A stretch of 64,000 nucleotides of DNA, taken from contig JAIPBD010000002.1 in NCBI GenBank assembly GCA_021739765.1, forward strand, positions 186,001 to 250,000. The letters run 5' to 3'. Position numbers and translations under genes: made by a program. The notes beneath the pieces are model-generated. The model was not told the origin of the DNA. It worked only from the letters and a program-made list of their open reading frames with translations, and searched no databases. Every line of letters starts with the position of its first letter. Positions within the stretch are counted from its first letter, which is position 1. The DNA comes from Melioribacteraceae bacterium. Lineage in GTDB: Bacteria > Bacteroidota > Ignavibacteria > Ignavibacteriales > Melioribacteraceae. Shown here in pieces: positions 60,789-63,064 of the stretch.

Positions 60789-61202
60789 TTACGCGGTTAT
60801 AATTTCTTTAAGATTTCTGATAATAATCAGCAGCTGTTTTTCTTTTATAAATTCTTGAATTAGATCAATATTTATCCACTTGCGCTTCCGGAAGTCTTCC
60901 TCCCATTTTTTATGTACTTCGGTGACTTTAAGCGGATAGTAAACAACTTTACATTTACCGCCCCATTTCTTATAGACTTGGGCACCAAGAATTACATTTA
61001 TTATTTTACCGTCGATACCGGCTTCTTCAACAGCTTCTTTGCGCGCTGCTTCCTGGGCACTGTATCCGTTATCAATTATTCCTTTCGGGATTATCCATCT
61101 TTTGTCTTTTCTTGATCTTATAATTAGAATTTCAAATTTATCGTCTCCATTCTTGCGAAATGGAACCACACCGGATTGTTGAAATATTTTTTCTATTTTC
61201 AT
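60789..61202 (-). CDS. NUDIX hydrolase with altered Nudix box
   Basis: A 137-aa protein. It has the diphosphoinositol/dinucleoside-polyphosphate type opening (SGVVPFR...ILIIRSRKDKRWIIPKG). The Nudix box is GIIDNGYSAQEAARKEAVEEAG: the first Glu is Tyr and the Arg of the RE pair is Lys, but both downstream Glu of EExG are kept. Activity is plausible but metal binding may differ. It lies divergent to the HD-PycTM gene with about 150 bases between. Confidence 0.85.
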   Translation of the reverse strand: MKIEKIFQQSGVVPFRKNGDDKFEILIIRSRKDKRWIIPKGIIDNGYSAQEAARKEAVEEAGIDGKIINVILGAQVYKKWGGKCKVVYYPLKVTEVHKKWEEDFRKRKWINIDLIQEFIKEKQLLIIIRNLKEIITA

Positions 61203-61350
61203 TAGCAGGAAGTAAATATTTATTAAATATGAGAGTTGAAGGAAATTTAATTTCCTTTATGCAAATAACAAAGTTATTTGGTCCTAAAATCTTTGATTTT
61301 ATTCCCTACAAAACCTAATTTGAAGTTTATGTAATTTGGAATCGGCAAAC

Positions 61351-62562
61351 ATGATTGATCAGAATAACATTATCGATATTAAAGAATTTGTGACAAACAA
61401 ATTCAAAGAGAAAGAATATGCGGTTTTCCTTTACCATAATCTTACTCATACACAACAAGTTGTTACTACCGTAAAATGGTTGGGAGATGAATTAAAACTT
61501 GCTGAAGAAGAAGTAAATTTGCTAATTGCCGCCGCCTGGTTTCATGATCTCGGATATGTTAATAATTCTGAGAATCATGAAGCTGAAAGCGCCGCTATCG
61601 CAGAGAAATACCTTACAGATAAAGGGACTGACCGTGGTTCAATAGAAAAAATAAAAGAGCTGATTGCATCAACACATTTATCGAAAAAACCATCAAACAT
61701 TCTTGAAGAAGTAATTTGCGACGCAGATTTGATTCATATGGGCTCTGAGAACTTCCTCCGCAAATCGAATTTACTGAAAATTGAATTCGAGCAGAGAAAT
61801 AACAAAGTGATTGACGACGCAAAATGGGATGAAGAATCATTCGAATTTTTGCAAAGTAATCAATTCCACACCCTGCCGGCAATTGAAAAATTTGGAGCAC
61901 AGCGAGAGCAAAATATTATTGAGTTAAACAAAAGAATCAAGAAACACAAAAAGAAATCAGCTCAAAAAAAACATGAATCCCATGAAAAAGCGAAAGAGGA
62001 TAAAAAAGCTACACGCGGTGTAGAAACAATGTTCCGAAACGTGATGCGCACTCATGTTAGTTTTAGCGCAATGGCGGATAATAAAGCTAATATTATGATA
62101 AGTGTGAACACATTAATATTAACCGCCGTAGTCGCGATTTTATCCCGCAAATTGGATTCCAATCCGCACCTTATTATTCCTACAATAATTATTACCGTGG
62201 TTTGTTTGGTTACATTAATTTTCGCGACTCTCGTTACCAGACCGCAAATTAACCGTGGGACTTTCTCTAAAGACGATATTAAGGAGAAAAAAGCAAATCT
62301 TCTATTTTTTGGCAATTTCTATAATGTCGATTTGAAGGATTTTAATTGGGGAATGAACGCAATGATGCGGGACGGTGATTATTTGTATGATAGTATGATA
62401 AAGGATTTTTATTTCCTCGGGCAAGTTCTCGGTAAAAAATATAAATATTTAAGAATCTGTTACACCATTTTTATGTACGGATTAATTATTTCAGTAATTG
62501 CCTTCGGTATTGCAACTTTTTTTGCGCCGGAAGGAACAGCATTAGGAGATTTCATTGAATAA
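61351..62562 (+). CDS. HD-domain phosphohydrolase fused to a Pycsar-effector-like membrane domain
   Basis: A 403-aa protein. Residues 1-190 are an HD domain with complete metal ligands: His29 and His33 in YHNLTH, His65-Asp66 in WFHDLGY, a later STHLSKK histidine, and DADLIHMG. A charged linker (about 200-225, very Lys/Glu-rich) follows. Residues 228-395 begin FRNVMRTHVSFSAMADNKANIMISVNTLIL and contain four helices, which matches the PycTM (DUF5706) domain of the Pycsar cyclic-nucleotide defence effectors. No nucleotide cyclase gene is in the window. The ATG at 61351 is preferred to a TTG 15 bases upstream. The next gene overlaps by 8 bases. Confidence 0.82.
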   Translation: MIDQNNIIDIKEFVTNKFKEKEYAVFLYHNLTHTQQVVTTVKWLGDELKLAEEEVNLLIAAAWFHDLGYVNNSENHEAESAAIAEKYLTDKGTDRGSIEKIKELIASTHLSKKPSNILEEVICDADLIHMGSENFLRKSNLLKIEFEQRNNKVIDDAKWDEESFEFLQSNQFHTLPAIEKFGAQREQNIIELNKRIKKHKKKSAQKKHESHEKAKEDKKATRGVETMFRNVMRTHVSFSAMADNKANIMISVNTLILTAVVAILSRKLDSNPHLIIPTIIITVVCLVTLIFATLVTRPQINRGTFSKDDIKEKKANLLFFGNFYNVDLKDFNWGMNAMMRDGDYLYDSMIKDFYFLGQVLGKKYKYLRICYTIFMYGLIISVIAFGIATFFAPEGTALGDFIE

Positions 62563-63064
62563 TAAGAAAACACTTTTCATTTGCCGTCATGCCAAATCCA
62601 GTTGGAAAGATTTAAATTTATCCGATAAAGAACGCCCGCTAAATAAAAGAGGAAAACGTGATGCGCCTTTTATGGGTAAACTTCTTTCCGAAAAAGGAGA
62701 AAGGGCCGATTTAATTATTTCCAGCAATGCCGTTCGCGCAGTGCTTACCGCAAAAGCTTACGCTAAGGAATTAGGATACCCAAGTGAAAATATCCGAATC
62801 GTACCAAATATATACGAAGCCGGAAGCAGAGAATTGTTTGGTGTTATAAAACAAATTGATGACCAGTACAACAATGTATTTATGTTCGGTCATAATCCCG
62901 GTTTTACTTTATTATATAATTTTATTACCGATGAACGATTGGATAATATTCCTACAAGCGGAGTTGTTAAGGTTTCTTTCGATGTAAGCTCTTGGAAAGA
63001 AATTGAAGTTGGAGCCGGTTTAACGGATTATTTTGAGTATCCTAAAAAATATCGAAACGGTTAA
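62555..63064 (+). CDS. SixA-like phosphohistidine phosphatase, TTG start
   Basis: A 169-aa histidine-phosphatase family protein. The catalytic RHA motif is LFICRHAKSSWKD at the N-terminus. The later GHNPGF motif near residue 113 holds the second catalytic His. SixA removes phosphate from phospho-His in phosphorelay domains; other members act on small metabolites. The start is TTG at 62555 with an AGGAG site 6 bases upstream. It overlaps the preceding HD-PycTM gene by 8 bases, so the two are translated together. Confidence 0.88.
   Translation: MNNKKTLFICRHAKSSWKDLNLSDKERPLNKRGKRDAPFMGKLLSEKGERADLIISSNAVRAVLTAKAYAKELGYPSENIRIVPNIYEAGSRELFGVIKQIDDQYNNVFMFGHNPGFTLLYNFITDERLDNIPTSGVVKVSFDVSSWKEIEVGAGLTDYFEYPKKYRNG

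Follow-up and report, generated by a model that had tools for sequence, protein, structure and literature searches.

An HD phosphohydrolase joined to a PycTM domain is widespread in Bacteroidota and may belong to a housekeeping cyclic-nucleotide circuit

We analyzed a stretch of 64,000 nucleotides from a Melioribacteraceae bacterium (contig JAIPBD010000002.1, positions 186,001 to 250,000), which we call the window. It contains a gene in which an HD phosphohydrolase domain is joined to a PycTM domain, with a Nudix hydrolase gene and a SixA-like phosphatase gene on either side. The features of the locus are as follows.

60789..61202, minus strand: Nudix hydrolase gene, divergent; its cluster lies within five genes in 8/49 fused loci, only in the window's family
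61351..62562, plus strand: HD-PycTM fusion gene, 403 aa, ATG start, with an alternative in-frame TTG at 61336
61441..61740, plus strand: HD phosphohydrolase domain, residues 31-130 (Pfam), with H29 just N-terminal of the Pfam match
61951..62013, plus strand: Lys/Glu-rich linker between the domains, about residues 201-221, of varying length among relatives
62014..62559, plus strand: PycTM domain region, residues 222-403 (Pfam match 266-377)
62555..63064, plus strand: SixA-like histidine phosphatase gene, TTG start, with an 8-base overlap with the fusion gene

Judged from its sequence, the gene is an HD phosphohydrolase with an intact and invariant metal motif joined to a PycTM domain. The HD match (PF01966, residues 31-130) had an E value of 1.9e-10 and 41.5 bits against a cut-off of 22. 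The protein has both the H...HD...D motif and the score that mark a member of the HD superfamily. The PycTM match (PF18967, residues 266-377) had an E value of 4.5e-34, passed the gathering cut-off with 117.5 bits against 27.2, and spanned positions 1-107 of the 107 in the profile. The PADLOC PycTM model also matched the fusion protein (2.5e-16), as did the CBASS 2TM effector model. The original prediction had placed a metal site at H29, H33, H65, D66 and DADLIH (124-129), a Lys/Glu linker behind it and a PycTM (DUF5706) block after that, and each of these was borne out by our searches. It had described the block as four helices. The hydropathy scan showed three hydrophobic stretches instead, at about residues 245-268, 268-301 and 366-398; two of them come first, then a conserved polar stretch with FFGNF, and then the third. 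The source genome (4.54 Mb, 37 contigs) has a single PycTM match.

In order to judge the HD half, we aligned 50 HD parts, namely that of the window protein and those of 49 relatives; 14 of the 50 are not fused. Nine residues (H29, H33, H65, D66, H76, E77, D124, D126 and E145) were invariant in all 50 parts, and the same nine were also invariant in 40 aligned fused proteins. Because these residues are invariant, the HD half looks like an active enzyme. The Pfam HD family matched all 50 members, HD-CE matched 30, and PDEase_I matched 6 (E <= 0.01, best 3.3e-5). The window protein itself gave no match to PDEase_I (PF00233) at E 0.1.

When the 50-member profile was compared with the PDB, the best matches among the best 60 of 125 were YpgQ-type HD hydrolases (2pq7 at 2e-10, with 3b57, 3gw7, 3dto, 3djb and 2qgs), which share the H..HD..D order. 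Hydrolases of this type are not known to carry an attached membrane domain. Among the same 60, class I cyclic-nucleotide phosphodiesterases appeared weakly, at E 0.006-0.05. They align with the H29-x3-H33 ... H65-D66 stretch, but the match covers about 50 residues. The known members of this class are mostly eukaryotic. For the other group, YpgQ is reported to cleave dNTPs (PMC8177086), and plant YpgQ-like proteins are reported to cleave cAMP and cGMP (PMC8431786). Since the nearest solved relatives of the HD half are of the YpgQ type, its sequence would fit a nucleotide pyrophosphohydrolase equally well. According to the original prediction, the HD part may bind or hydrolyze a cyclic nucleotide. 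This is still a guess, strengthened by the weak match to class I phosphodiesterases and by the cyclase co-occurrence described below, while the best matches to YpgQ-type enzymes speak against it.

The PycTM half is better conserved than the HD half. The median pairwise identity of the fused proteins was 0.49 in the PycTM half and 0.35 in the HD half, and the PycTM half was the more alike in 770 of 780 pairs. It thus appears to be the more constrained part. Among 42 aligned PycTM parts, including that of the window, the PADLOC PycTM model matched 42 and the CBASS 2TM effector model 40. A search of the PDB with the PycTM profile gave nothing up to E 1.

Proteins with HD alone or PycTM alone occur besides the fusions, and PycTM without a fused HD was found in loci of three families (f32, f40 and f46). 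In one genome (G042, locus L085) the two domains are encoded by separate genes that overlap on the same strand, and SixA-like and PPK1 genes come after them. The domain trees were poorly resolved. Several families were not monophyletic in the PycTM tree; the label fused or HD-only required 7 changes, so that the fusion may have arisen once or repeatedly.

PycTM proteins without HD were also seen in viral contigs of IMG/VR, in 149 of 250 candidate stretches, of which the best 80 were taken (L134-L213; for example, L137:3040-5630, L157:4974-5693 and L175:4986-5576). The three such proteins that we tested were all above the Pfam PycTM cut-off. The same three genes, for proteins of about 115 aa, 150 aa and 365 aa, the last solute-binding-like (with a PF00497 match in L137), were all present in 55 of these best 80 loci, and at least one of them accompanied PycTM in 71 of the 80. 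The L157 PycTM protein matched nothing among the INPHARED phages, and none of three PycTM and three cassette proteins matched PHROGs. The cassette may encode a membrane complex of the virus, or it may serve to counteract signalling of the Pycsar type.

As had been predicted, the gene after the fusion gene overlaps it by 8 bases, beginning at TTG 62555, and its product matched His_Phos_1 above the cut-off. The score with the NCBIfam SixA equivalog was 40.9 bits, below the cut-off of 74.5, and therefore only the name SixA-like is justified. Mycobacterial MutT1 (NCBIfam NF052459) gave weak matches, well under its cut-off, to both flanking genes: one half of it to the Nudix gene (E 3e-7) and the other half to the SixA-like gene (E 1e-3), as though one enzyme were split into two genes.

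We tallied five genes on each side of 74 anchor genes, that is, 49 fused, 14 HD-only and 11 PycTM-only genes. L085 and L127 count twice in this tally, because each has an HD gene and a separate PycTM gene; L047 and L123 yielded no anchor gene and were left out. Near the fused genes the most frequent cluster was a metallophosphoesterase-Omp85 protein (32/49 loci, 13 families), followed by PPK1 (21/49, 9 families), an SdiA-regulated protein (21/49, 7 families), the SixA-like protein (20/49, 5 families), a GAF-like protein whose GAF match is under its cut-off (12/49, 5 families) and a cyclase-TPR protein (1/49, 1 family). Both domains of the phosphoesterase-Omp85 cluster were matched in two full-length members, and a shorter member matched nothing.

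The two halves kept different company. Within five genes, the 14 HD-only loci had SixA-like in 9, PPK1 in 2 and phosphoesterase-Omp85 in 0. The 11 PycTM-only loci had phosphoesterase-Omp85 in 5 (3 families), cyclase-TPR in 3 and SixA-like in 1, which is the split locus. A SixA-like gene stood directly downstream on the same strand in 16/49 fused and 7/14 HD-only loci. The HD half thus associates with the SixA-like gene, the envelope phosphoesterase is the companion of the PycTM half, and the fusion unites both; since the HD-only loci come from three families only, this split is a trend and not proof. A SixA-like gene is no fixed component of the PycTM system, given 9/14, 20/49 and 1/11 in the HD-only, fused and PycTM-only loci.

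Presence of PPK1 alone was rejected as evidence, because 355 of the 395 genomes sampled have this gene. In the window's own family (f1), two PPK1 matches occurred in 6/10 genomes with PycTM and in 0/16 without it. Among these 10 genomes, 4 had only a second PPK1, 4 had only a cyclase of the c25 type described below, 2 had both and none had neither; each of the 16 others had one PPK1, and c25 was in one of them. This pattern is suggestive but is not proof, and there is a counter-example in another family (f2), where G035 has the fusion, one PPK1 and no c25. In those six genomes a PPK1 gene also lies within five genes of HD-PycTM in the fetched locus. A study of phosphate starvation in Flavobacterium johnsoniae lists a PPK-like gene and phosphatases, and its main text names no HD or PycTM gene (PMC8115612).

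In all, 193 genes lie no more than two positions from a fused gene, and 97 of them were scanned. The other 96 belong to clusters already named (c25 cyclases included), are the anchors themselves or are shorter than 100 aa. Nine PADLOC models matched the scanned neighbors at 1e-10, each in 1 or 2 genes, and two of the nine were PycC models. The first 25 of 103 Pfam matches to these neighbors were to mixed housekeeping families.

The gene is widely distributed. A match was found in 33/59 near genomes and in 175/395 genomes sampled across the phylum, the source genome being counted in both. Among the matches listed (to about E 4e-32), the PycTM part was covered in 125 of the 395; this list and the cyclase lists were compiled by hand. 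The 49 fetched fusion loci come from 16 families, and named relatives include an Ignavibacteriales MAG, a Melioribacteraceae MAG, a Bacteroidetes MAG and BMS3Abin03. The full-length fusion is present in 34/39 known genomes of one family (f30), and the window's family is patchy, with a PycTM match in 10/26 of its genomes in the phylum sample. Of 72,556 plasmid records 2 had a match, which in one case, a Persicobacter replicon of 859 kb, spanned almost the whole length; of 50,697 phage records 0 had a match. Across the phylum, the distribution resembles that of a core gene more than that of an island gene. The defence-island or mobile and patchy distribution of Pycsar was not found, though the gene is patchy within its own family.

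With regard to cyclases, a Guanylate_cyc search found none in the window, in agreement with the original prediction, and six in the whole source genome. The cyclase profile also had no hits in the 19.5 kb around the fusion gene (L086). A Pycsar operon in the window was rejected, as there is no cyclase there and the distribution is of a housekeeping kind. Pycsar has a pyrimidine cyclase beside its effector, which responds to cCMP or cUMP and stops phage. Here the nearest class III cyclase (C4:168312-169397) is on the window's contig, 17 kb to the left of the window, so that about 78 kb separate it from the fusion gene.

This nearest cyclase is of the c25 type, our label for a class III subfamily of about 360 aa that unites the cyclases of two families (f26 and f16). 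The N-terminal part of c25 is hydrophobic by eye. The catalytic domain has both metal aspartates, with Gln and with Ala or Val at two positions which we take to be the base-selecting sites (usually Lys and Asp). In the source genome, the c25 gene is divergent from two genes resembling a sensor and a response regulator (L214:8310-11767), which resemble genes near HD-PycTM in another locus (L098, clusters c336 and c24). The PADLOC PycC models matched c25 at about 1e-11 and ordinary cyclases at 3e-23 (L083) and 3e-20 (L115). We rejected these matches as cyclase evidence, because ordinary cyclases outscore c25 and the models do not discriminate.

The original prediction had called for a tally of cyclase neighbors. 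A class III cyclase was present in 11/74 fetched loci (7/49 fused, 3/11 PycTM-only and 1/14 HD-only) against 0.86 expected from whole-genome counts, a Poisson comparison which counts related loci as independent and serves as a guide only. The 11 loci belong to six families (f1, f3, f16, f26, f32 and f45), are not all independent, and in some the cyclase is several kb off; five of the 11 hits are seeds of the cyclase profile.

Of the 82 known genomes of f26, 68 were surveyed. All four genomes with HD-PycTM (G095, G195, G280 and G305) had exactly one class III cyclase, placed tail to tail beside HD-PycTM, and any class III cyclase was found in 2 of the 64 others. Cases in which c25 is adjacent or close come from two families only, f26 (adjacent) and f16 (close). 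In one f26 genome with a cyclase and without HD-PycTM (G251), the cyclase overlaps a gene for 189 aa without a Pfam match (L217:3940-5326), and a nearby gene is resolvase-like by eye. This layout is Pycsar-like, which is not proof of such a system. In f32, phosphoesterase-Omp85, cyclase-TPR and PycTM genes stand in this order on one strand in 3/5 loci (L119, L120 and L122), a possible operon without HD that is housekeeping-looking.

We compared the presence of c25 and PycTM over the 395 genomes. A genome was called c25-positive when it had a match to our profile A6 at E < 1e-50, a cut chosen after the list was seen. There were 45 such genomes, and the E values of the other five on the list range from 1e-26 to 1e-20. 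The c25 cyclase was present in 43/125 genomes with PycTM and in 2/270 others (Fisher 6e-22). When the test was stratified by 12 families, 39 were observed against 22.8 expected (CMH p 6e-12, OR 106); three f32 genomes were added between the Fisher count and the stratified test, and families were unassigned for some genomes. As a control we took another family of class III cyclases (from L130, E <= 1e-50), which was found in 35/125 and 68/270 of the same genomes, without any link (CMH p 0.57, OR 0.67). Since A6 was built from cyclases near PycTM genes and from that of the source genome, we repeated the count without the 7 genomes that supply its rows, and c25 was then present in 36/118 against 2/270 (CMH p 2e-7). 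All of this is co-occurrence measured among related genomes.

Of the two c25-positive genomes without PycTM, one was among 50 with an HD-only, weak or unlisted match and one was among 220 without any match. Thus c25 accompanies PycTM, not HD. On the other side, 82/125 PycTM genomes lack c25 at the cut used, and among the 72 genomes that supplied fetched loci there were 10 in which we found no cyclase of class III (G364, G306, G389, G130, G153, G069, G206, G339, G210 and G042). PycTM genomes without c25 or without any class III cyclase would therefore need another source of ligand.

The system resembles Pycsar (PycC with a PycTM effector) in that the window protein has a PycTM domain above the Pfam cut-off and in that a class III cyclase subfamily co-occurs with PycTM and lies beside it in f26. 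It differs from Pycsar in the fused HD enzyme, the window without a cyclase, the phosphate-related neighbors, the wide, chromosomal and housekeeping-like distribution, and the low scores of c25 on the PADLOC PycC models. To our knowledge, the only role described for PycTM is that of a suicide effector in defence against phages. A CBASS 2TM effector model matches 40/42 PycTM parts; with these effectors and with Panoptes the PycTM half may share the character of a membrane effector gated by a nucleotide. The literature presents PycTM and the analogous proteins of CBASS and Panoptes as nucleotide-controlled membrane effectors (PMC11224242, PMC12657218, PMC12657230), of which Cap15 is activated and OptE or 2TM-beta is held off by the nucleotide (PMC12657218, PMC12657230). 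OptE and Cap15 differ from the present protein in that their sensor is a beta-barrel. In the literature searched we found no description of an HD-PycTM fusion; the domains are known already, and we did not meet there the c25 partner or the split of neighbors between the halves.

These results can be read in several ways. The explanation that we tentatively favor, at somewhat less than even confidence, is a housekeeping cyclic-mononucleotide circuit of Bacteroidota built from Pycsar-type parts. The c25 cyclase with its hydrophobic N-terminal part would make a cyclic nucleotide, and the PycTM domain would be an inner-membrane receptor or effector answering it. The fused HD would be a metal phosphohydrolase, most likely a phosphodiesterase (or a hydrolase of a related nucleotide), which keeps or turns the receptor off. 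The output may be cell-envelope phosphate or polyphosphate physiology rather than abortive infection, as the phosphoesterase-Omp85, SdiA-regulated and PPK1 neighbors suggest. A receptor that removes the signal to which it responds is the simplest way to account for the specific cyclase partner together with the fused hydrolase; lineages without the HD would need another phosphodiesterase. We infer in this way the c25 product as the ligand, its cleavage by HD and the role of the membrane part.

Alternatively, and in our view unlikely, the protein may be a housekeeping hydrolase of dNTP or NTP, ApnA or another phosphate ester, held at the membrane by a PycTM domain that no longer signals, and linked to polyphosphate and phosphate metabolism. 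Its nearest solved relatives of the YpgQ type fit such an enzyme, and so do its neighbors, since PPK1, the SixA-like and Nudix proteins and the Omp85-anchored phosphoesterase would each be expected to act on phosphate compounds; the second PPK1 in the window's family (6/10 against 0/16) points the same way. However, PycTM is better conserved than the enzyme half and is found without a fused HD (f32, f40 and f46), so it is probably more than an anchor, and the c25 association tracks PycTM, not HD. Considerably less probable is that the cyclase link just reflects genome content, as when larger environmental genomes contain more genes of every kind, and that the signal is polyphosphate, phosphate or the state of the membrane. 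The absence of c25 from 82/125 PycTM genomes would agree with this, as would the neighbors of the fused loci, where PPK1 (21/49) and the envelope phosphoesterase (32/49) outnumber cyclases (7/49). Against it, the control cyclase family showed no link in the same 395 genomes (OR 0.67), the c25 link persists within families and without the seed genomes, and the genes are physically adjacent in f26 and close in f16.

The least probable of these readings, which we consider improbable indeed, is a phage-triggered Pycsar variant with a built-in regulator, to which the PycTM and CBASS 2TM matches and the minority of f26 genomes (4/82 known) that have cyclase and HD-PycTM together might point. Such an effector is hard to reconcile with a fusion found in 34/39 known f30 genomes and in fetched loci of 16 families, with a window without a cyclase, with PADLOC matches to nine models that each hit 1 or 2 of 97 scanned neighbors, and with 2 plasmid and 0 phage records. 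The wide chromosomal distribution, the absence of a cyclase from the window and the few defence-type neighbors agree better with the other possibility raised in the original prediction, that of a housekeeping relative of the Pycsar effector.

Returning to the circuit that we favor, a broader form of it is possible but somewhat more doubtful. In this form the system would be a widespread Bacteroidota counterpart of Pycsar, in which c25 signals to a conserved inner-membrane PycTM receptor with its own HD phosphodiesterase and thereby to envelope phosphate or polyphosphate, and the immune effector and the receptor would share an ancestor. If this is true, a conserved chromosomal PycTM with its own hydrolase and a specific cyclase partner would show a possible source of the immune effector, and the Bacteroidota would gain a candidate cyclic-nucleotide pathway of which the maker and the receiver are both named. 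The family label "Pycsar effector" on such genes does not imply defence.
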